Source of the DNA: Branchipolynoe longqiensis
Taxonomy: Eukaryota; Annelida; Polychaeta; Phyllodocida; Polynoidae
Direction: 5' to 3'
Assembly: GCA_030323885.1 (NCBI GenBank)
Contig: CM059193.1
Span: 59,106,042 to 59,170,041 of the forward strand
DNA: 64,000 nt
The first letter of the stretch is position 1, and each line of letters begins with the position of its first letter. Below are positions 2,178 through 62,440 of this stretch, piece after piece. The translations under genes were made by a program, and so were the position numbers. The notes beneath the pieces were generated by a model. The model was given only the letters and a program-made list of their open reading frames with translations. It had not been told where the DNA came from and did no database searches.

Positions 2178-3716
2178 TCTCACCTGTTTCTAGTTGGTGA
2201 GTAGGTGTGTCGCCACGCCGCTTGACTTTTCCAGTCGTTTGTCATAATGTTTCAAACGATCCAGCCGTCTTCCACCCAGCGTGTGCTAGAATTGTCTTAA
2301 CCAAGATTCCTAATTGTCTTGCCTTGGAGACCATGGCTCCACGCATTGAGTGAGACGCATAACGTCCAGTGTTGACTCCTCCTTGCTTAAGCACCTTGAT
2401 AGTCCACCTTGTGAGAGTGTTTCTCGAGATGGCTTTATGTGGTCGTAAAAAGCTGATTAGTAGTTGCCTGGAATTTCTGATTCCACCTGACTTGGATATG
2501 TAAGCCCTAATGGCCGAAACTATATCATCATCATCATCATCATGCTGTCGGTCATGATGCGACAAAGACTGCTTTCATTACTTGACTGCCGCTCTCCATT
2601 TAGCTCTCTGCTGTGAGAGTGATGTTTTGTGCGGTTGTACATTTCATGAAAGCTGCCTGCAAAAGTGTTGAAGTGCTCCTGGCTTTTGCAAGTTACCAGC
2701 GGCACTCTCTCGGGGAGCAAATAGAGGTCTCACACCGGCAAGAACATGTCCAGACAGGCGCAAAACTATTTGTCCCTGCAGTGGCTGGTTGGGAGATGTT
2801 GGGAGTTCCATACATCAACCGCCCTTGATGCTGCCACAGTGACATGGTTTTCTGTTCAGCGTTTGCTCCCTTAGCCTTCAGTTCTGTCAAGAACCTGTAC
2901 CACAAGACATTGGTTTACAACTCTGCAGGGCAGGGGCATCAAACTCCCTGAGGTATTGCAATACCTGCATACTACACATAACTGTTCATCCTCCAGAAAA
3001 CCAGTAATGTGTACTGTGGACAGTGGGTCCCCTGTACAATTTGATTTAAGCAATGTCTGTAAATCAAATGTAGCTTCTTCCTTATCTATTTCTAATCCAT
3101 CCAGTGAAAGTGCCACAATGCTTTTGCCTCTGTGCCCTGTAATTAGCAATAATAAGACTGCTAATTTAAATCCTAGGTCTTTCATTGATAACTGTTTGTT
3201 GCTAGGCCATGACTTGAATAGATCCCTAAACCTATTATATTTAGGTTTGGGTGGGTTTCTTTCGTACACCGATCTAGTGAACCAGTGTACTAACTGATAT
3301 TTCCCAAATGTATGTCCATCTATTCTTGGTAAAATTATGGATAGGGCACATCTCGCTGCGTTAATAGCACCAAATCCTAGTCCTTTGTCTTCTAATATTA
3401 TTAGAAATCATAGCACTTGAGCTATTGTAGGTTTTAACGGTTTGACTCCTTTGAGAAGGCAATGAAGGTCCCATTTCTTTAAATAACTTGTGTATAATTT
3501 AACTGTTCCTTTTCTCCAGGCATGTGATATTATTCTTTCTTTTGTTATTTTGTCTATTCCAAATTGTTCCAAATCTTTTCTTAGAAAAGGAATGCCAAAA
3601 GGGGTGTTGTCGACACGTTTCCGTGGACTGTTAGTGGTCCTTGATGATGAAGGTTGTTCCTTTCTCTTTGGAAGCTCATCAAGTCTTTTGCTGCTGATGT
3701 TATTGCCGCTAACCAT
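2178..3716 (-). pseudogene. DIRS tyrosine recombinase
   Basis: The N-terminal SAM-like part (FLRKDLEQFGID, AWRKGTVKLYTSYLKKW) lies at 3408-3716. The catalytic part begins at 3269 with LLLITGHRGKSIVALSL (first Arg). The C-terminal part (2242-2565) has HSMRGA and HAGW, the H-x-x-R and His of the family. The catalytic Tyr (KHYDK) follows in another frame after a stop, near 2245. The pieces sit in different frames, so the protein is dead. Confidence 0.8.
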
Positions 3717-3840
3717 GGTTGCGTTACTATCAGTAGTGCGTGGGTGTGATCCATCTTGACATTCCTGGCCTCTCTGCTCATAATGCTGAATGGAGGGAAT
3801 ATGTAATAGAATTTATTATTCCAAATTAATGAAAATGCAT

Positions 3841-4576
3841 CTACTCTCCAGGCTTCTTGCTCTGGATGCCAAGACACATATTTTTGTAACTTTTTGTTGT
3901 TGCATGATGCAAAGAGATCAATGTCTGGCTTGCCCATTTGTGACAAATACTGTCGAAAAAGTTGTTCAATGACCATTCTAAATGGTCATGGAAGTGTTCG
4001 CTTTTCCTGTCAGCCAAAGTGTTTTGGCTGCCTGGAATATGTGCTACTGTTAGCCATATTTTGTGTGTCTCTGCCCAATCCCAAATAAGCTTTGACAGGT
4101 TGATACATGGTTTGGAGCAAGTCCCTCCCATATTACGAATGTAAGCTATAGCTGTTGTGTTATCTGTTAGAACTCTTACATGATTTTTAGGAATGTGCAC
4201 CAGACTGCAGAGTCCTAGGTAAATGGCTCTAAGCTCAAGTACATTAATGTGGTCGGAGATTTCCTCTTCCATCCATCGGCTACCTGTTGTCTGTTGGTGT
4301 CTATTGGCCCCCCAGCCTTCCAACGAAGCATCTGTTGTCTCCATGTATAATCGGGTTGGGTGAGTTGTTTATGTGTGAAAGCCACCAAATTATATTGTTT
4401 TGGGCTTCTGGTGAAATTGTCATGGGCCGCTTGAAATTTCCTTTTGTGCAAGCCAGTGCCAAGTTGTTATCTATCTCTAAGGATTTGATATGGGCCTGGT
4501 CATATAAGATAGCTGGTGCATAGACTATCATTATTCCTATCAAGACTGCAACTTGTCGTATTTTTGGTTTGTTCAA
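3841..4576 (-). pseudogene. DIRS RT connection and RNase H domain
   Basis: The connection piece (KIRQVAVLIGIMIVYAPA, then ISPEAQNNIIWWLSHI) and the RNase H piece (TDASLEGWGA, then INVLELRAIYLGL, VLTDNTTAIAYIRNMGG, HIPGSQNTLAD) lie in two frames separated by a frameshift near 4340. The first Asp, the Glu of LELRA and the Asp of TDNTTA are the RNase H catalytic positions and remain. Confidence 0.8.
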
Positions 4577-4589
4577 TTGTAATAATTGG

Positions 4590-4698
4590 GGGTTTTTGGG
4601 TTGTTTTTTTGGTACATTAGTTGTTTAAGCAGGGGAAATTTCAGTCGCAGATGACTGGTCTTCCTTATTCCACTGCTCCTTGCCCTATCCTAGTAAGG
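4590..4698 (-). mobile_element. SINE-A tail fragment inside the DIRS element
   Basis: Only the 3' half is present (ACTAATGTACC to GATAGGGCAAGG). It abuts broken RT sequence on both sides. Confidence 0.8.
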
Positions 4699-4966
4699 TT
4701 AGATCTAAAATTAGTCTAACATCCCCCTTTGGTTTGGGTCTTAAGAAAATGTTCGAGATAAATTCGCCAGCCATGTGTAGTGCTGGTGCTATAATGGCCT
4801 TTTTGCAAAACTTTAGGACATGATTGTTTAATGCTTCACATTCTGAAGCATGAAAACGATATGAAAATGGTATTCTATTTTGAATAGGTTCTTCTATTAA
4901 TGGAATTCTTACACCTTCTGCTAGGCTAAGGATATTTAAGTTATCTGTAACTATATTCCATTCCAA
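4699..4966 (-). pseudogene. DIRS reverse transcriptase, N-terminal fragment
   Basis: IQNRIPFSYRFHASECEALN, then LKFCKKAIIAP and ISNIFLRPKPKGDVRLILDL, the entry to RT motifs 1-2 (FLRPKPKG-R-ILDL). The frame is cut at 4698 by the SINE fragment. The YxDD-type catalytic motifs are absent from the window, so polymerase function is lost. Confidence 0.75.
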
Positions 4967-5022
4967 AAGACAGTTATTGAGGTTACCGGCTTGAAAGGTA
5001 TTGCTTACTCTTTCGGTTGCTA

Positions 5023-5283
5023 TTATTTAGTCACCATTTCTATTTGTTCCCTGGGTGGGGGAACAGCTTCTGAGTGTTGAACTCCCACTTGAATGGCCTC
5101 TTCCCGTCGTTCCAGCTGAACGACTGCCTCTGGCCCGGTCCTTTGGCTTGGAAGCTGAAGTTGGATCGGTTGCGAAAATCCTGCCTCAGTTCTTGAAGCA
5201 GTTGGAGTTGCCATCAGCCGTTTCTTTCTGTCCGTTTCCATGTTTTTCCCACACTTGGAGCAGGTCTCTACTTGTTTGAACAA
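5023..5283 (-). pseudogene. DIRS gag-like segment with CxxC
   Basis: Starts near FKQVETCSKCGKNMET (a single CSKC knuckle), then Gln/Pro-rich sequence. It lies between the gag N-terminus and the RT start, in the expected gag position. The frame from 5590 to 5290 is a Lys/Ser-rich linker on the minus strand with interruptions. Confidence 0.5.
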
Positions 5284-7653: not shown

Positions 7654-8154
7654 TGTCGCGGGGGTGATGAAAGGGGAAATATTGTGCCTAGAGCGGGACT
7701 CGAACCCACATGTCTTTGCATTCCGGGACAGTGTGCTAACCATTACACCACCTACGCTCCCTGATATCAACACACTACCCACGCCTACCTGTCTATGTGG
7801 TTACCTGCCTGAGAGGTCAGTGCCGACTACTACACTCGTCCCCCTGGAATTGTAAGTCTTTTAATGCTTACAATTACATACACACAGGCAATGCAACGCA
7901 CTTACATACACAGAGTAGATTCAACAACCAGACAGTGAGTAGCTTGTACAGGATCATTGTCACGGCAACCAGTGTCATGGGGATGATGAAAATGGGAAAT
8001 ATTGCACCTAGAGCGGGACTCGAACCCACATCTCTTTGTATTCCAGGCCAGTGTGCTAAGCATTACACCACCTAGGCTCCCTGATATCAACACACTACCC
8101 ACGCCTACCTGTATATGTGGGTACTTGCCTGAGAGGTCAGTGCCGACTACTACA
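7654..8154 (-). mobile_element. TRIM-like miniature LTR element, copy 1 (tRNA-Gln-like promoter in the LTRs)
   Basis: A 501-bp element with LTRs at 7654-7834 and 7973-8154 flanking 138 bp. It is flanked by a 4-bp duplication, ATAT (7650-7653 and 8155-8158), and its ends are TG...CA. On the element strand the primer-binding site one base after the 5' LTR reads TGGTTGCCGTGACAATGATC, and a purine-rich CAGGGGGACGAG precedes the 3' LTR. Both LTRs share variants absent from other copies (GCCGACTACTACA at one end), as expected when both LTRs are copied from one template. The two LTRs differ at about 8% of sites. No coding capacity. Confidence 0.8.
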
Positions 8155-8807: not shown

Positions 8808-9043
8808 TTTTTTTTGTTGGTCCATTAGTTGTTTAAGCAGGGGAAATTTCAATCGTGGACGACTGGTCTTCCTCATTCTACTACTCCTTGCCCTATCCTA
8901 ATAATGCCTAGCGCCTGGCTAGGAAGCGACAAGTACACATTTTTAAGTCATTGGTTTGACTTGACTAGGGTTCGAACCCATGACCCCACGATCTACCAAA
9001 CACGGGAGACGGACGCTCTAACTCATTCGGCCATCCCATCTGG
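8808..9043 (-). mobile_element. SINE-A copy, full length
   Basis: Head with GGGTTCGAACCC-like B box and CGGCCATCCCATCTGG end; tail with GGACCAACAAAA. Confidence 0.85.
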
Positions 9044-16169: not shown

Positions 16170-16537
16170 GTTGAAGTTGTTATGTCCTGGCTACATCTTA
16201 AGTCATATCCGTCCTGATATGACCTTAGATGTTGCAAAAGCGTAAAACACCAACAACCAACCAATCTAAACTCATATCAGGACGGGTACCGACTTGTAAC
16301 AGAGCGCACTCCTGGCGACTTTATAGTGCTGCCAAACTGGGAGACCAGGCCACTGATTCCATGGCCCAATTTCCTTCACTCAGTCACATTATCCTGATAC
16401 TCAGCTAACCAGTCCTTGCCCTATCCTAGTAGCGACAAGTATCAATGCTTAAGTCATTGGATTGACGCAGCTGAGATTCGAACTCCCGATCTTATGCATG
16501 GGAAGCCTAGGCTCTACCGATTCGGCCACCGTATCCG
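16170..16537 (-). mobile_element. SINE-B copy with duplicated tail, second head type
   Basis: Two tail pieces in opposite senses (16175-16255) precede a full body and head ending TTCGGCCACCGTATCC. Confidence 0.8.
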
Positions 16538-18132: not shown

Positions 18133-18649
18133 AGTCCGATGGTTTTGAGTTTCTGTCATTTTTCTGAGATATATGTTAGATTAATCATTATAATCTACCT
18201 TACTTTTAGGTTGAAGTAACTTTATGTTGAATGGCTAACTTTGGAGATATTTGAAGTATAAACATACATACAAATTAATTTTGGCATGCATGCCAAAACT
18301 CTAACACCATAGGCTTATGCACTAACAGGTTTCATTAAATTTGGCAACACATGCTGAATACGTGTGTCATGGGGGTGGTGAAAATGGGAAATATTGCGCC
18401 TAGAGTGGGACTCGAACCCACATCTCTTTGCATTCCGGGCCAGTGTGCTAACCATTATACCACATAGGCTCCCTGATATCAACACACTACCCATGCCTAC
18501 CTGTCTATGTGGTTACTTGCCTGAGAGGTCAGTGCAGCCTACTACAGTCGCATCAGTATCTAAATTCTAGGTTAGTTATGTAGGATCAAATCTAGATGGG
18601 TGTTTTTGTATTGAAAATTTGATGCTTCATCGGACTATGCCGCTTCAAT
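18133..18649 (+). mobile_element. TTAA-type MITE, copy R4, split by the solo LTR
   Basis: Left part to 18364, right part from 18547; the right end CATCGGACTATGCCGC is mutated. Confidence 0.8.
18365..18546 (-). mobile_element. solo LTR of the TRIM-like element
   Basis: A single 182-bp LTR with TG...CA ends, containing the same tRNA-like block. It interrupts a TTAA-type MITE (18133-18649), whose sequence resumes on both sides (GAATACGTG / GCATCAGTATCTAA). The 4-bp target duplication is degraded. A solo LTR is what unequal recombination between LTRs leaves behind. Confidence 0.75.
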
Positions 18650-25794: not shown

Positions 25795-26080
25795 ATTCCC
25801 AGTCAAACTCTAGTCGAGTCAAACCGGGTACTTACAAATTTGTACTTGTCGCTTCCTAGTCAGGCGCTCAGCATTATTAGCCTAGGGCAAGGACTGGTTG
25901 GCTCAGTGTCAGGATAATGTGACTGAGTGTGATATCAGGTCATGGTGCTGGTGCCTTGGTCTCCCAGTTGGGCAGCACTATAAAGTCGCCATGAGCGTGC
26001 ACTGTCGCAAGTTGGTACCCGTCCTGATATGACCTTAGATGTTGCTAGGACGTCAAATTCCAAAAATCAACCAACCAACA
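25795..26080 (+). mobile_element. SINE-B body and tail, first of a tandem series
   Basis: Lacks an intact head; its tail (AATTCCAAAAATCAACC) leads directly into the 366-bp tandem units. Confidence 0.8.
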
Positions 26081-27037
26081 AGTCGATACCCGTCCTGATA
26101 TGATGTTGCCAGGATGTAAGTTTGAGCGTCCGTCTCCCATGTTGGTAGACTGTGGGATCTGGGGTTCGAACCCTGGTCGAGTCAAACCAATGATTTAAAA
26201 ATTGATACTTGTTGCTGCCTAGCCAGGCGCTCGGCATTATTAGGATGAGGCAAGGACTGGTTAGCTGAGAGTCAGGATAATGTGACTGAGTGTGATATCA
26301 GGTCATGGTGCTGGTGGCCTGGTCTCCCAGTTGGGCAGCACTATAAAGTCGCCATGAGTGTGCACTGTCACAAGTTGGTACCCGTCCTGATATGACCTTA
26401 GATGTTGCTAGGATGTCAAATTCCAAAAATCAACCAACCAACAAGTAGATACCCGTCCTGATATGATGTTGCCAGGATGTAAGTTTGAGCGTCCGTCTCC
26501 CATGTTGGTAGACTGTGGGTTCTGGGGTTCGAACCCTGGTCGAGTCAAACCAATGATTTAAAAATTGATACTTGTTGCTTCCTAGCCAGGCGCTCGGCAT
26601 TATTAGGATGAGGCAAGGACTGGTTAGCTGAGAGTCAGGATAATGTGACTGAGTGTGATATCAGGTCATGGTGCTGGTGGCCTGGTCTCCCAGTTGGGCA
26701 GCACTATAAAGTCGCCATGAGTGTGCACTGTCACAAGTTGGTACCCGTCCTGATATGACCTTAGATGTTGCTAGGATGTCAAATTCCAAAAATCAACCAA
26801 CCAACAAGTCGATACCCGTCCTGATATGATGTTGCCAGGATGTAAGTTTGAGCGTCCGTCTTCCATGTTGGTAGACTGGGATCTGGGGTTCGAACCCTGG
26901 TCGAGTCAAACCAATGATTTAAAAATTGATACTTGTTGCTTCCTAGCCAGGCGCTCAGATGTATTAGGATAGGGCAAGGCGGTGTGGAATGAAGAAGCCC
27001 AATCGTCCGTGGTTGAAATTTCCCCTGCTTAAACAAC
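26080..27037 (+). repeat. SINE units tandemly repeated at 365-366 bp
   Basis: The junction CAACAAGT(C/A)GATACCCG...GATGTTGCCAGGATG followed by the head recurs at about 26080, 26445 and 26810. Units 1 and 2 are nearly identical. Unit 3 switches after GGATAGGGCAAGG to the SINE-A tail, which the TRIM then interrupts. Confidence 0.88.
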
Positions 27038-27538
27038 TGTAGTGGTCTGCACTGACCTCTCAGGCAAGTAACCACATAGACAGGTAGGCGTGGGTAGTGT
27101 GTTGATATCAGGGAGCCTAGGTGGTGTAATGGTTAGCACACTGGCCCGGAATGCAAAGAGATGTGGGTTCGAGTCCCGCTCTAGGCACAATATTTCCCAT
27201 TTTCATCACCCCCATGACACTGGTGCCATGACCAGGATCCTGTACAAGCTATGCGCTGTATGGTTGTTGAACCTACCCTGTGTATGTATGTGTTAGTGCA
27301 TTGCCTGTATGTATGTAATTGTAAGTATTACAAGACTTGCAATTGCAGGGGGACGAGTGTAGTGGTCTGCACTGACCTCTCAGGCAAGTAACCACATAGA
27401 CAGGTAGGCGTGGGTAGTGTGTTGGTATCAGGGAGCCTAGGTGGTGTAATGGTTAGCAAACTGGCCTGGAATGCAAAGAGATGTGGGTTCGAGTCCGCTC
27501 TAGGCACAATATTTCCCATTTTCATCACCCCCATGACA
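27038..27538 (+). mobile_element. TRIM-like miniature LTR element, copy 2 (inserted in a SINE tail)
   Basis: 5' LTR 27038-27219, internal 27220-27357, 3' LTR 27358-27538; length 501 bp as in copy 1. It is inserted in the tail of a SINE, with target CAAC duplicated (27034-27037 and 27539-27542). The intact SINE tail elsewhere reads TTAAACAACTAATG, which gives the empty site. The primer-binding site TGGTGCCATGACCAGGAT (27221 on) resembles the reverse complement of the tRNA-His 3' end, and the polypurine tract is GCAGGGGGACGAG (27345-27357). The LTRs are about 98% identical, so insertion is recent. Each LTR contains a tRNA-like block (about 27114-27187) with A box TGGTGTAATGG and B box GGTTCGAGTCC. 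Confidence 0.85.
27114..27187 (+). promoter_or_regulatory. tRNA-Gln-like sequence with Pol III A and B boxes inside the LTR
   Basis: The acceptor-like ends GCCTAG / CTAGGC pair. The D-arm reads TGGTGTAATGGTTAGCAC, matching animal tRNA-Gln. The T-arm is GTGGG-TTCGAGT-CCCGC. The anticodon arm does not fold, so this is not a tRNA gene but could act as an internal Pol III promoter. Equivalent blocks lie in the other four LTRs. Confidence 0.7.
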
Positions 27539-27575
27539 CAACTAATGTACTAAAATAAAACACCCCAAAAAAAAC
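27539..27575 (+). mobile_element. remainder of the SINE-A tail after the TRIM insertion
   Basis: CAACTAATGTAC plus A-rich end completes the tail interrupted at 27037. Confidence 0.8.
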
Positions 27576-30255: not shown

Positions 30256-30389
30256 GTTGCATTTTTAGGCGAACCTAGTCTAATTCTTTTTATATTGAGG
30301 CATTTCACTAAGATTATATCCCAAACTAGTCGATGCCTAATACCTTTGTGTCATCTAATTTCTGTGGTTATGGTCATTTGTCTTTGCAG

Positions 30390-30960
30390 GTAATCTGCGG
30401 CACGGATCTGAAATTCATCAACTGCATCGTCAAGTGGCCGGGCAGCGTCCATGATGCTCGAGTTCTCCGTGAGTCGGACCTGTTCGACGCATTTGAGAGT
30501 GTGGACGCTAAACCTTTGGCAGGCGTTCTCCTAGGGGACAGTGGCTACATGTTGCGGGATTGGCTGCTTACCCCCTTCATGAACCCAGTCAATGCTCAGC
30601 AGGAAGCATATACACCACAAGTCCGCTAGGTGCATTGTTGAAAGATCGATAGGAGTCCTCAAGTGACGCTGGCACTGTTTGCGCAGGCTGCGCCTCCAGC
30701 CCGAAAAAGCATGCAATGTGATAACAGTGTGCATCATCTTGCATAACAAAGCTAGGGATCTGCGCCTCACTGACCCCGCTGACTCGGATTATGAAGGCGA
30801 ATCAGACCACGAAGATGGGGGACACGATGAACCTCCTCGGCCACGGAACTACCAACAAAGTGAGCATGTGCGCTCAGTCGTGGGTAAAGCTGCCCGCCAG
30901 AGAGTCGTTGACAATTATTTTTTATTTACTTTGAATACCACATCCCACTCTAATATGTTG
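30390..30960 (+). pseudogene. PIF/Harbinger (HARBI1-like) transposase, 3' part
   Basis: After an acceptor (TTGTCTTTGCAG|GTA) come VICGTDLKFINCIVKW, PGSVHDARVL and VLLGDSGYMLRDWLLTPF, matching the DDE_Tnp_4 fold with its second Asp (GDSGY). The Glu motif (ERSIGVLK) follows near 30640 in a shifted frame, with an in-frame TGA directly after it. Then come RRLRLQPEKACNVI, CIILHN and an acidic tail (EGESDHEDGG). The exon with the first catalytic Asp is not found upstream. Frameshift and stop make it non-functional. Confidence 0.85.
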
Positions 30961-31063
30961 TCGCTAATGGGTGTGTAAGATGGTAAACATTTGGACAAAA
31001 CGTATGTACATGTGTTGATAGAATTTATTAATGGATAGCCAGCGGAGTACAACACTTTTACGT

Positions 31064-32394: not shown

Positions 32395-32863
32395 CTGAAA
32401 GAGAGGGAAACATAATTAAGCTGAGACATAACAACTATTTGCCAATTTCATACAATAATAAACGTAATTAGCTACCCGATTATCAGTCACTACTCGTTGT
32501 TATATTTCCTTCGAACCATTTCGGCATGCAAACCATTTTGATGAAAGCAAATTAAATAGTTGGAGAAATGGTCTTTCCATCCGATGTGAAATTCAATTGC
32601 ATATATTGTTTTATGGGTAACTAACCGATAACAAAACAGTCAATTTTAGATTTATTACGATCGAAACTAGTAGGCTTTCAATGCTAACAGCATGTTTTGT
32701 TCGACGTAAAAAGGATAATGCTGTCCCATATATCTAATGAAATTAAGGGGATGTAATGACGTCCGTTAAATTTTGTGGAAATGTTTTCGCAGCTACCTGA
32801 ATGAATCCCTATGATTTGTAAGTAGCTTTGTCTTTAATAACTTGTCCACATTGCAGAACTTAC

Positions 32864-33238
32864 TTGTGACTCCCTCGTACAGGCTCGACTCGTACCCGAT
32901 AATTTCCTGGATGGTGTCCTCGTACGTACCATAGCGGAGGCTCCTTCCGTTTGCTTGGCCCTTCTCTGTCGCGCGAGCACCTCACTCTTCATTCCCTTCC
33001 ATTTCTCTTTAATTTCGGACCGCGATCGCTTGGCCACACCACATGCATTTATTGCTGCGACCACAGTGTCCCAGGCATTGTTCTTGTCGTTGTGCGTCAA
33101 TTTATTATTGAATGAGGAAAATAAGTCGAACCTCCGTAGCAGCACCTCCTCCAAGAGCACTTGGATCTCATTGTGGCCGTAGTTGCACTTACGCTGCCGT
33201 TTATTCGCAGAGCGGCCCACACACTCCGACGCCATCAT
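32864..33238 (-). pseudogene. Harbinger Myb/SANT-like DNA-binding protein, exon 1
   Basis: Begins MMASECVGRSANKRQRK, then NEIQVLLEEVLLRR, KNNAWDTVVAAINACGV and RSRSEIKEKWKGMKSEV, the trihelical Myb/SANT domain of NAIF1-like proteins that partner Harbinger transposases. After about residue 100 the conserved-looking frame (YEDTIQEIIGYES) is one base out from the N-terminal frame, so there is a frameshift near 32945. The donor is ACAA|GTAAGT. Confidence 0.8.
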
Positions 33239-33611
33239 AGAGATTTTAGGGTTTATTAGGTACAATCAAGTGTGTGCACGAAACCGTAGTAGCTGTACCT
33301 GACTTGTACTGACTTGTACTAGTATAGATGACTTGTATAGCCGTAGGCGTCGGCGTGTCAAAACGTACGCTAGGGATTGAGCAGCTCTTTGTTTCTCTCG
33401 GCCGAAATCAGTGATTGTCAACAAACCGATTTTGAAGCGTTATACACGTGGTACTTGGTCTTTTGGTCGTTTTTACATGGAGTAAGTGATCGTAGAGTAG
33501 TTTGATAGTTGCCGGCAATGCGAAATCAAAAGTTAGGCTGTACCCGTCGGAAACGTGCAACTTTCAATGCGGTTGCCGATACCAGCGACATGGGGGGTAC
33601 CCCGATCTATA

Positions 33612-40634: not shown

Positions 40635-43600
40635 CCCCCCCCGTCCTGCTATGACCTTAGCTGTTGGCAGGGCGTAAAACTCCAACCACCACACATAACC
40701 AATCCTTCCTTCCCCCATCCTGCTATGACCTTAGCTGTTGGCAGGGCGTAAAACTCCAACCACCACACACAACCAATCCTTCCTTCCTTCCCCCATCCTG
40801 CTATGACCTTAGCTGTTGGCAGGGTGTAAAACTCCAACCAGCACACACAACCCATCCTTCCTTCCTTCCCCCGTCCTGCTATGACCTGTTGGCAGGGTGT
40901 AAAACTCCAACCACCACACACAACCAATCCTACCTTCCTTCCCTCGTCCTGCTATGACCTTAGCTGTTGGCAAGGTGTAAAACTCCAACCACCACACACA
41001 ACCAATCCTTCCTTCCTTCCCCCATCCTGCTATGACCTTAGCTGTTGGCAGGGTGTAAAACTCCAACCACCACACACAACCAATCCTTCCTTCCTTCCCT
41101 CGTCCTGCTATGACCTTAGCTGTTGGCAGGGTGTAAAACTCCAACCACCACACACAACCAATCCTTCCTTCCTTCCCCCATCCTGCTATGACCTTAGCTG
41201 TTGGCAGGGTGTAAAACTCCAACCACCACACACACCAATCTTCCTTCCCCATCCTGCTGACCTTAGTGTTGGCGTCCTGCTTGCCTTAGCTGTTGGCAGT
41301 GAACTCCACACACCACACCTCCTTCCTTCCCCGTCTGCTATGACCTTAGCTGTTGGCAGGGTGTAAAACTCCAACCACCACACACAACCAATCCTTCCTT
41401 CCCCCGTCCTGCTATGACCTTAGCTGTTGGCAGGGTGTAAAACTCCAACCACCACACACAACCCATCCATCCTTCCTTCCTTCCCTCGTCCTGCTATGAC
41501 CTTAGCTGTTGGCAGGGTGTAAAACTCCAACCACCACACACAACCAATCCTTCCTTCCTTCCCCCGTCGTTGTTTTGTGTTGGGGTAAAACTCACACCAC
41601 ACACCAATCCTTCCCTCGTCCTGCTATGACCTTAGCTGGTGGCAGGGTGTAAAACTCCAACCACCACACACAACCAATCCTTCCTTCCCCAATCCTGCTA
41701 TGGCCTTAGCTGTTGGCAAGGTGTAAAACTCCAACCACCACACACAACCAATCCTTCCTTCCCCCATCCTGCTATGACCTTAGCTGGTGGCAGGGTGTAA
41801 AACTACAACCACCACACACAACCAATCCTTCCTTCCTTCCCCCATCCTGCTATGACCTTAGCTGGTGGCAGGGTGTAAAACTACAACCACCACACACAAC
41901 CAATCCTTCCTTCCTTCTGTTGTTGTTGTGTGGGGGTGTAAAACTCAACCACCACACAACCAATCCTTCCTTCCCCAATCCTGCTATGGCCTTAGCTGTT
42001 GGCAAGGTGTAAAACTCAACCACCACACACAACCAATCCTTCCTTCCTTCCCATCCTCTATGACCTTAGCTGGTGGCAGGGTGTAAAACTACAACCACCA
42101 CACACAACCAATCCTTCCTTCCTTCCCCCATCCTGCTATGACCTTAGCTGGTGGCAGGGTGTAAAACTACAACCACCACACACAACCAATCCTTCCTTCC
42201 CCCATCCTGCTATGGCCTTAGCTGTTGGCAGGGCGTAAAACTCCAACCACCACACACAACCAATCCTTCCTTCCCTCGTCCTGCTATGGCCTTAGCTGTT
42301 GGCAGGGTGTAAAACTCAAACCACCACATGCAACCAATCCTTCCTTCCCTCATCCTGCTATGACCTTAGCTGCTGGCAGGGTGTAAAACTCCAACCACCA
42401 CACACAACCAATCCTTCCTTCCCCCGTCCTGCTATGGCCTTAGCTGTTGGCAGGGTGTAAAACTCCAACCACCACACACAACCAATCCTTCCCTCGTCCT
42501 GCTATGACCTTAGCTGTTGGCAGGGTGTAAAACTCCAACCACCACACACAACCAATCCTTCCTTCCCCCATCCTGCTATGGCCTTAGCTGTTGGCAGGGC
42601 GTAAAACTCCAACCACCACACACAACCAATCCTTCCTTCCCTCGTCCTGCTATGGCCTTAGCTGTTGGCAGGGTGTAAAACTCAAACCACCACATGCAAC
42701 CAATCCTTCCTTCCCTCGTCCTGCTATGACCTTAGCTGCTGGCAGGGTGTAAAACTCCAACCACCACACACAACCAATCCTTCCTTCCCCCGTCCTGCTA
42801 TGGCCTTAGCTGTTGGCAGGGTGTAAAACTCCAACCACCACACACAACCAATCCTTCCTTCCCTCGTCCTGCTATGACCTTAGCTGTTGGCAGGGTGTAA
42901 AACTCCAACCACCACACACAACCATCTTCTTCCCCCGTCCTGCTATACCTTAGCTGGTGGCAGGGTGTAAAACTCCAACCACCACACACAACCAATCCTT
43001 CCTTTCCCCATCCTGCTATGACCTTAGCTGTTGGCAGGGTGTAAAACTACAACCACCACACACAACCAATCCTTCCTTCCCCCATCCTGCTATGACCTTA
43101 GCTGTTGGCAGGGTGTAAAACTCCAACCACCACACACAACCAATCCTTCCTTTCCCCATCCTGCTATGACCTTAGCTGTTGGCAGGGTGTAAAACTCCAA
43201 CCACCACACACAACCAATCCTTCCTTTCCCCATCCTGCTATGACCTTAGCTGGTGGCAGGGTGTAAAACTCCAACCACCACACACAACCAATCCTTCCTT
43301 TCCCCATCCTGCTATGACCTTAGCTGTTGGCAGGGTGTAAAACTGCAACCACCACACACAACCAATCCTTCCTTTCCCCATCCTGCTATGGCCTTAGCTG
43401 TTGGCAGGGTGTAAACGTCCAACCACCACACACAACCAATCCTTCCTTCCCTCGTCCTGCTATGACCTTAGCTGTTGGCAGGGTGTAAAACTCCAACCAC
43501 CACACACAACCAATCCTTCCTTCCCCCGTCCTGCTATGGCCTTAGCTGTTGGCAGGGTGTAAACGTCCAACCACCACACACAACCAATCCTTCCTTCCCT

Positions 43601-45350
43601 CGTCCTGCTATGACCTTAGCTGTTGGCAGGGTGTAAAACTCCAACCACCACACACAACCAATCCTTCCTTCCCCCGTCCTGCTATGGCCTTAGCTGTTGG
43701 CAGGGTGTAAACGTCCAACCACCACACACAACCAATCCTTCCTTCCCTCGTCCTGCTATGACCTTAGCTGTTGGCAGGGTGTAAAACTCCAACCACCACA
43801 CACAACCAATCCTTCCTTCCCCCGTCCTGCTATGGCCTTAGCTGTTGGCAGGGTGTAAACGTCCAACCACCACACACAACCAATCCTTCCTTCCCTCGTC
43901 CTGCTATGACCTTAGCTGTTGGCAGGGTGTAAAACTCCAACCACCACACACAACCAATCCTTCCTTCCCCCGTCCTGCTATGGCCTTAGCTGTTGGCAGG
44001 GTGTAAACGTCCAACCACCACACACAACCAATCCTTCCTTCCCTCGTCCTGCTATGACCTTAGCTTTGGCAGGGTGTAAAACTCCAACACCACACACAAC
44101 CAATCCTTCTTCCCCTCCTGCATGGCTTAGCTGTTGGCAGGGGTAAATCCAACCACACACAAACCAATCCTTTTCCTTCCTGTTGTTGTTTGTTGGGGTG
44201 TTTTTTTCCCCGTCTGCTATGACGTTAGCTGTTGCAGGGTGTAAACTTCAACCACCAACACAACCAATCCTTTTGTGTTTCCTTCTTCCCCCGTCCTGCT
44301 ATGACCTTAGCTGTTGGCAGGGTGTAAAACTCCAACCACCACAACACCAATCCTCCTTCCCCGTCCTGCTATGGCTTAGCTGTTGGCAGGGTGTAAAATC
44401 AACCACCACAACTTTTTCCCACAAACCAATCCTTCCTTCCCCCCGTCCTGCTATGGCCTTAGCTGTTGGCAGGGTGTAAAACTCCAACCACCACACACAA
44501 CCCATCCTTCCTTCCTTCCCCCATCCTGCTATGGCCTTAGCTGTTGGCAGGGTGTAAAACTCCAACCACCACATGCAACCAATCCTTCCTTCCTTCCTTC
44601 CCTCGTCCTGCTATGGCCTTAGCTGTTGCAGGGTGTAAAACTCCAACCACCACACGCAACCCATCCTTCCTTCCCCCGTCCTGCTATGACCTTAGCTGTT
44701 GGCAGGGTGTAAAACTCCAACCACCACACACAACCCATCCTTCCTTCCTTCCCCCGTCCTGCTATGGCCTTAGCTGTTGGCAGGGTGTTAAACTCCAACC
44801 ACCACACGCAACCCATCCTTCCTTCCTTCCCCCGTCCTGCTATGGCCTTAGCTGTTGGCAGGGTGTAAAACTCCAACCACCACACACAACCCATCCTTCC
44901 TTCCTTCCCCCGTCCTGCTATGACCTTAGCTGTTGGCAGGGTGTAAAACTCCAACCACCACACACAACCAATCCTTCCTTCGCCCGTCCTGCTATGGCCT
45001 TAGCTGTTGGCAGGGTGTAAAACTCCAACCACCACACACAACCAATCCTTCCTTCCTTCCCTCGTCCTGCTATGACCTTAGCTGTTGGCAGGGTGTAAAA
45101 CTCCAACCACCACACACAACCAATCCTTCCTTCCTTCCCTCGTCCTGCTATGACCTTAGCTGTTGGCAGGGTGTAAAACTCCAACCACCACACACAACCA
45201 ATCCTTCCTTCCTTCCCTCGTCCTGATATGGCCTTAGCTGTTGGCAGGGTGTAAAACTCCAACCACCACACACAACCAATCCTTCCTTTCCCCCCATCCT
45301 GCTATGACCTTAGCTGTTGGCAGGGTGTAAAACTCCACACATAACCAATC
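40635..45350 (+). repeat. 4.7 kb satellite of about 70-80 bp monomers derived from the SINE 3' end
   Basis: About 60 monomers with core CTATGACCTTAGCTGTTGG, CAGGGTGTAAAACTCC and ACCACCACACACAACC, spaced by CCTTCCTTCCC. The core aligns to the local SINE end (ATGACCTTAGATGTTGC, AGGACGTAAAAC). Between about 43.4 and 44.05 kb two variants (GTAAAACTCC and GTAAACGTCC) alternate with a 147-bp higher-order period. Frames opened by the array are not genes. Confidence 0.92.
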
Positions 45351-45997: not shown

Positions 45998-46306
45998 AGA
46001 TTTATACTGCCTATCATGGATAAGTCTGAATAGTCTTGTTTTCAGCATTAGACAGTTTGTCGATAGAAAGCCTGAGCCTACACTTTTACCGACCCAAGGG
46101 ATTTTTAACCTCCCACACCACATAGACATGGTATGAGAGCAACCGGCCTTTGATGACGCTGTAAATTATACACAGCGGTGGACATCCAAATTGGCAGAGG
46201 TGGGAGGGGGGGGGGGAGGGACGGGGGATCGAACCACCAACCTTCAGATTAGGAGTTTGACCTAGAAAAAATTCAGACACACTAACCACTCTGCCACAGA
46301 GAACAG
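45998..46306 (-). mobile_element. SINE-C copy with its own tail
   Basis: Head at the right (CACTCTGCCACAGAG). The other end is AGATTTATACTGCCTATC, unlike the SINE-A tail. Confidence 0.8.
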
Positions 46307-61214: not shown

Positions 61215-61651
61215 TGAAAGCTAGTGACATCTATCGGCAGAATTTGGAACCACTCTAGTCGGGTCGTTTCCCTGACTGCCTATGATTTCACATGCTATAT
61301 CTCCTTAAATAATGCTTGGGAAAATAATAAAATGCTTGGTTATATTCAGGTATTCATATCGCAACATGTTTCAAGCTTTTATCGTTGTAATATATATATT
61401 TTTTTGCAAAAGACAACTATATTGTGTTTTTCTTATGGGTTTCACTGCTGCTCTCTTCATGTATTACACCCCTCCAGTTAAGCTAGTGACATATATCGGA
61501 GGAATCTGGATCCACTTTAGTTGCATACTTTCAGCTTAAATGGTGGGGTCTATTGTTTGTGTTATTCATGACGCGACACAGGTTAAAGGTAGTACATGTA
61601 TATATTATACTTTGTTTACGGATTAATGTCCTTGTTGAAAGAGTGACTCAC

Positions 61652-61808
61652 CGACTCGTATCTTCAAATGGTTTCCGGTGTGAGGGTCAATGAGTTCCTG
61701 CATGACTTCCATCATGTCGAAGGCCATGTCACATATGTACAATGAGTGAAACTTGGTGATGACTGGTGCGCCCGACACCACCATGTACGCGTCTCCAATG
61801 GTCTCCAC
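61652..61808 (-). CDS. Gyc88E-like: soluble guanylyl cyclase 88E/beta-2-like, catalytic exon (first visible)
   Basis: This exon encodes the core of a class III nucleotidyl cyclase domain, which converts GTP to cGMP. It opens with VETIGDAYMVVSG, which carries the metal-binding Asp of the cyclase fold, and ends with DPHTGNHLKIRV. The DP-TG-HL-IRVG pattern is what I recall from atypical, oxygen-sensing soluble cyclases (Gyc88E type) rather than receptor cyclases. The acceptor reads CCCTCAG|GTGGAG and the donor G|GTGAGT. The exon is 157 nt, enters in phase 0 and leaves one nucleotide, which the next exon completes to Gly. The heme-binding H-NOX domain, the coiled coil and the start of the cyclase domain must lie beyond 64 kb; I found no exon for them in 61.8-64 kb. 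Family assignment is solid; the subtype is about 70% sure. Confidence 0.88.
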
Positions 61809-61814
61809 CTGAGG

Positions 61815-62440
61815 GCGGAGAGTGGCAAGATATTCTTCGGTAAATGCGTTTATTCCTCTAAATATGGGTCTTTTCATGTCAAATGGGGCCAAGTATGACA
61901 TGAGGGTTACAAATTAATGTGTATTTCACAATTATTTTCGCTGAGTAGCCAACTCTTGTCGATATGGACACTAGGAATGTGAAAGAAAAGATTGTTGAGG
62001 TCACCATCTTGTCAGAATAAACAATAATTAAGTACTCAGCCCCAAGTGTAGGTCTAACATATGATTTATTAATAACAATTATTTAAGAAAATTTATTGCA
62101 TGAAACAATTTTTATGCTGTGACCCCCTTAAGTACATAACTGCACTATAAAGAAATCAGTAGAGGGAAGTTATATTCTTCCCAATTTTGTGTTAGGGATG
62201 TAACAAAATAGAAGGGGACACACAAAAATAGGGGACTTCAACTTCAATTTCTTTTCCCAATAAAACTTTGTATAAAAATATTAATAGTAATGGTCCTATA
62301 AAATAGGCTTACACATGCAACAGTAGCAAGTATTTTCTTACTGAAGCTCTGGTATTCTCAGAATAGCATATTCCTGACGTACCAAGCAGGGGACATGACA
62401 GTTACGTCCCAAACCGGTTTAATGATCATGGAATATTAGA
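61815..62440. other. intron sequence of the cyclase gene
   Basis: AT-rich, no exon or repeat recognised. Confidence 0.4.

Follow-up and report, generated by a model that had tools for sequence, protein, structure and literature searches.

The name Helenus was given by Kojima in 2024 to TRIMs that carry tRNA-derived sequence in their LTRs, together with a primer-binding site (PBS), a polypurine tract (PPT) and, in animals, 4-bp target site duplications (TSDs) (PMC10886601). The hosts listed for these elements are Ctenophora, Chordata, Mollusca (bivalves only), Brachiopoda, Nemertea and Arthropoda (six animal phyla), as well as fungi and one plant, and the group forms part of the proposed 'TRIMp3' (PMC10886601). 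According to the same source, Helenus may have arisen by insertion of a SINE into an LTR, multiple origins are thought likely, and transcription by RNA polymerase III (Pol III) is put forward without experimental demonstration (PMC10886601). A 2026 meeting report cites this work (PMC12859917).

We analysed a stretch of 64,000 nucleotides (hereafter, the window) from contig CM059193.1 of the annelid Branchipolynoe longqiensis, in which an element very probably of this type is represented by two full copies and one solo LTR, that is, by five LTRs. Its features are given below, in positions of the window.

27034–27037, + strand: left TSD of copy 1, CAAC; the sequence recurs at 27539–27542
27038–27219, + strand: 5′ LTR of copy 1, 182 bp, TG...CA
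27115–27187, + strand: tRNA-like block in the 5′ LTR of copy 1 (Rfam RF00005, 48.4 bits; ARAGORN 27115–27188)
27122–27132, + strand: A box of this block, TGGTGTAATGG
27166–27176, + strand: B box of this block, GGTTCGAGTCC
27200–27203, + strand: TTTT past the tRNA-like block, a possible weak Pol III terminator; the same at 27519–27522 in the 3′ LTR
27220–27357, + strand: interior of copy 1, 138 bp
27221–27238, + strand: PBS, 15/18 to the complement of the tRNA-His 3′ end
27347–27357, + strand: PPT, AGGGGGACGAG, identical in both copies
27358–27538, + strand: 3′ LTR of copy 1, 181 bp
27435–27506, + strand: tRNA-like block in the 3′ LTR of copy 1 (Rfam RF00005, 35.4 bits)
27539–27542, + strand: right TSD of copy 1, CAAC
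7654–8154, − strand: second full copy (copy 2), with the 5′ LTR at 8154–7973, the interior at 7972–7835, the 3′ LTR at 7834–7654 and an ATAT TSD on both sides
7685–7757, − strand: tRNA-like block in the 3′ LTR of copy 2 (Rfam RF00005, 37.2 bits)
8005–8077, − strand: tRNA-like block in the 5′ LTR of copy 2 (Rfam RF00005, 40.5 bits), with one change in the A box
18365–18546, − strand: solo LTR, 182 bp, flanked by cgac and cacg
18469–18397, − strand: tRNA-like block in the solo LTR (Rfam tRNA model, 37.9 bits)

The first-pass annotation of this DNA had described two elements of identical layout, bounded by TG...CA LTRs and 4-bp target duplications, and our analysis agreed on all of these points. 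The layout of 182 + 138 + 181 bp is present in both full copies, TG...CA ends were found in 5/5 LTRs, and exact duplications flank 2/2 full copies (CAAC/CAAC for copy 1 and ATAT/ATAT for copy 2), as in animal Helenus elements. With a total of 501 bp and an interior that is far below the size of a reverse transcriptase or integrase coding region, copy 1 lies within the Helenus definition of less than ~1000 bp in total, two LTRs and no retrotransposon proteins. The solo LTR that had also been reported is indeed present at 18546–18365 with the same ends, but a search of its flanks for a matching TSD found none.

Within copy 1, the two LTRs are 3 substitutions and 1 indel apart. Copy 2 is 91% identical to copy 1 over 503 aligned columns; its own LTRs are separated by 15 substitutions and yet differ from the 5′ LTR of copy 1 by only 10 and 9, which fits an older insertion whose LTRs have decayed independently. 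Copy 1 is clearly the younger of the two, and is fairly young. As for the earlier claim that LTR variants are shared within but not between copies, it holds for 2 of the 27 variable columns, namely 11 and 7 (the latter with the solo LTR on the side of copy 2), whereas 23 of the 27 are private to a single LTR. The pattern gives no strong support to within-copy sharing.

Both priming sites were found where they had been annotated. The PBS starts with TGG one base past the 5′ LTR, and AGGGGGACGAG lies immediately 5′ of the 3′ LTR in 2/2 copies, so that, as in Helenus, a PBS adjoins the 5′ LTR and a PPT adjoins the 3′ LTR. In copy 1 the best fit of the PBS was to tRNA-His (15/18; tRNA-His letters taken from PMC12217144), followed by tRNA-Glu (14). 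When the letters of the interior were shuffled 20,000 times and compared with a panel of 20 tRNAs at offsets of 0–5, no shuffle reached 15, and across both strands of the whole window two other places reached 15/18, both to the complement of tRNA-Ala. The PBS of copy 2 matches tRNA-His at 13/18 positions without gaps, and at 15/18 with one gap, the first 12 positions all matching. The site is therefore imperfect in both copies, and tRNA-Glu is a close second in copy 1; some PBS motifs are known to be hard to pin on one tRNA (PMC4724089). Among the primers given for Helenus in bivalves and vertebrates is tRNA-His (PMC10886601).

These structural features bear on the reading of the locus as a tandem tRNA-derived SINE, with a unit of 320 bp, that was misread as an LTR element. 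Two near-identical units do lie 320 bp apart, other dispersed tRNA-like sites occur in the window, and one Helenus family has been reported in tandem arrays (PMC10886601). Against this, exact TSDs surround both full copies at the same outer ends, the PBS and PPT stand at the right places, and the outer ends recur in a solo LTR. In the window, this evidence largely refutes a plain 320-bp SINE tandem, and we regard such an origin as extremely unlikely.

All five LTRs scored above the gathering score (29) of the Rfam tRNA model, at 35.4–48.4 bits and with E values down to 2.7e-07, and tRNA-derived sequence inside the LTRs, a feature shared with Helenus, was thus found in 5/5. At the gathering score the model had no match in the rest of the window; with a loose threshold, a further weak match was obtained at 16535–16463 (− strand; 24.9 bits). 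Matching A and B boxes had been annotated in each LTR, which proved correct for the B box (5/5) but not entirely for the A box (4/5), since one change alters it in the 5′ LTR of copy 2. A loose A-box pattern also gave 3 additional matches across the two elements. Compared with the published Helenus box wording, copy 1 has YGG and GGTTC, whereas its A box reads TGGTG instead of the TRGCY of most Helenus elements (PMC10886601). The block had been called tRNA-Gln-like: among 20 human tRNAs, tRNA-Gln did obtain the top score, with 51 identities and an extended exact match across the A box, but tRNA-Asn reached 50. ARAGORN called 1/5 blocks, as tRNA-Ser(gga).

The Rfam scores of up to 48.4 bits, and the fact that the block in the 5′ LTR of copy 1 has only two non-standard pairs, both in the anticodon stem and with no others marked, would be compatible with a block that works not only as a promoter but also as a structured RNA, for instance in processing by tRNA-end nucleases or in packaging. 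However, the anticodon stem is broken in both 5′ LTRs (non-standard pairs at 2/5 positions in copy 1 and 3/5 in copy 2, from the Rfam alignments), the minimum-energy folds, judged by eye, formed no cloverleaf in 5/5 blocks, and folding stability was not clearly above that of shuffles (z −1.81 to 0.34 for the five blocks). A structural role is in our view very unlikely. As the promoter boxes are kept while the anticodon stem is broken, the block more likely serves as a promoter than as a tRNA; for most Helenus elements, too, no functional tRNA is predicted (PMC10886601).

A different question is whether the block has any role, as the element could be an ordinary TRIM driven by Pol II, in whose LTR a dead SINE or tRNA fragment landed by accident. 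Variable columns do not avoid the block, which covers 73 of the 182 bp and holds 13 of the 27; it is not better conserved than the remaining LTR, and these five LTRs therefore lend no support to selection on it. The ordinary folding energies also agree with a block that has no role. On the other hand, the 5′ LTR of copy 1 contained neither a TATA-like motif (TATAA or TATATA) nor a polyadenylation hexamer (AATAAA or ATTAAA) when searched for these, the A box remains recognisable in four of the five LTRs and the B box in all, and it is the boxes that are conserved in the Helenus families published so far (PMC10886601). Taken together, we consider a Pol II-driven TRIM unlikely.

Regarding a possible donor of the tRNA-like block, comparison of the block with the window, the five LTR copies aside, returned only runs of 11 to 12 nt (E of at least 0.21), and the SINE-like repeats of the window are thus not supported as its source. 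These repeats include a 363-bp tandem repeat (3.2 copies, 25806–26979) that ends ~60 bp before copy 1 and carries the B-box-like GGTTCGAACCC at 26163, 26526 and 26887, with an A-box-like motif upstream of each. More GGTTCGAACCC sites lie in a common sequence context at 8969, 22988, 39811, 46757 and nearby, which suggests a tRNA-derived SINE family that is dispersed and differs from the tRNA block of the LTRs. At 46235 and 53654 (− strand), two sites resembling a B box share a different context ('gagtggttagtgtg...') and perhaps represent a second SINE family.

The proteins encoded in the window were surveyed with Pfam, using 92 of the 231 stop-to-stop frames of at least 70 aa plus sets of 10 and 9 frames (partly overlapping), and the matches comprised fragments of transposons, low-complexity hits and one exon of guanylate cyclase type. 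The latter is a probable guanylate/adenylate cyclase exon at 61626–61913 (− strand; E 5.2e-12). One protein search returned 21 hits out of 23 candidates, and a text search of the literature for a repeat of the window found 0 papers. A piece of a DDE_Tnp_4 transposase and a Myb_DNA-bind_5 domain were found at 30330–30975 (+ strand) and 32837–33265 (− strand), a combination typical of Harbinger-type transposons. By eye, ORF pieces at 2245–5026 (− strand) resemble the RNase H and tyrosine recombinase of a DIRS-type element, and in Pfam this region gave only a weak RVT_3 match, below the cut-off (E 0.0083). A 4.7-kb tandem array occupies 40638–45337, with a 74-bp unit over 40638–44172 and longer-period units beyond.

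Judged by anatomy as published, the element is very probably a further member of Helenus, with which it shares TRIM organisation, a tRNA-derived block with A and B boxes in the LTRs, PBS and PPT, 4-bp TSDs and the occurrence of solo LTRs (PMC10886601). The first-pass annotation had proposed an animal TRIM with a tRNA-derived promoter of Pol III type that was possibly undescribed; the anatomy supports the first part well, but not the second, as the kind was named in 2024 (PMC10886601). The origin suggested there, capture of a SINE-like head by an LTR element, agrees with the one that Kojima proposes (PMC10886601). Exact patterns of 22 and 25 bases in viral contigs, and of 22 bases in prokaryotic contigs, had 0 matches each, which says little because the collections cover viruses and prokaryotes and may omit records near the genome of the window.

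Other described TRIMs resemble the element less closely. Cassandra of plants likewise has the promoter of a Pol III gene in its LTRs, and a transcript that extends between the promoter blocks of its two LTRs, but this promoter is derived from 5S rRNA (PMC10886601). Ajax, from nemerteans, also carries a small-RNA promoter in the LTRs of a TRIM and differs by its 5S rRNA fragment, 5-bp TSDs and tRNA-Leu primer (PMC10886601). The harvester ant PbTRIM is an animal TRIM with 4-bp TSDs, PBS and PPT, whereas it has a TATA box in U3 and a tRNA-Leu primer, and the available text of its description does not mention a tRNA-derived LTR block (PMC3532108). The biv-TRIM of bivalves, another animal TRIM, has no canonical PBS, and its tRNA similarity lies in the inner domain rather than in the terminal repeat (PMC6934838). 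The available text of PMC10294476, consulted for TRIMs with promoters, added nothing further.

From the arrangement of these sequence features, the element is very probably a non-autonomous TRIM of Helenus type, with a putative Pol III promoter in its LTR, priming by tRNA-His and enzymes supplied by a partner. Transcription by Pol III would begin in the 5′ LTR, at the tRNA-like block or just upstream of it, and would continue through the interior into the 3′ LTR. R would then extend from the tRNA-like block to a stop point shortly past it, U5 would be the short tail of the LTR, and U3 would comprise roughly its first 75 bp. Reverse transcription would be primed by tRNA-His at the PBS and the second strand by the PPT, with reverse transcriptase and integrase coming from an autonomous LTR retrotransposon, probably of Gypsy type as Kojima proposes for animal Helenus (PMC10886601). 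Integration would generate the 4-bp duplication, after which inserted copies would decay independently.

Runs of at least four T in copy 1 number one per LTR, each 3′ of the block, and copy 2 no longer has the TTTT in its 3′ LTR. When the letters of the element were shuffled 2000 times, 0 to 2 such runs arose in 1453 cases, so that their number is not unusual by chance, and their position is at most suggestive of a terminator. The TTTT in the 5′ LTR could end transcripts early. A bolder version of the proposed life cycle, which we consider rather doubtful, is that of a Helenus lineage beyond the listed host groups in which the block sets the whole of R, and in which a weak terminator would act as a switch: a stop of Pol III at the first TTTT would give a short RNA, and read-through to the second would give the genomic RNA.

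In practical terms, elements of Helenus type make tRNA finders report false tRNA genes, as with the tRNA-Ser called by ARAGORN inside one LTR, and they scatter promoters of Pol III type across a genome. The present example, which offers TSDs, a PBS that can be read and a copy of fairly young age, adds to the picture of how far these elements have spread, but leaves the concept of Helenus as it was.
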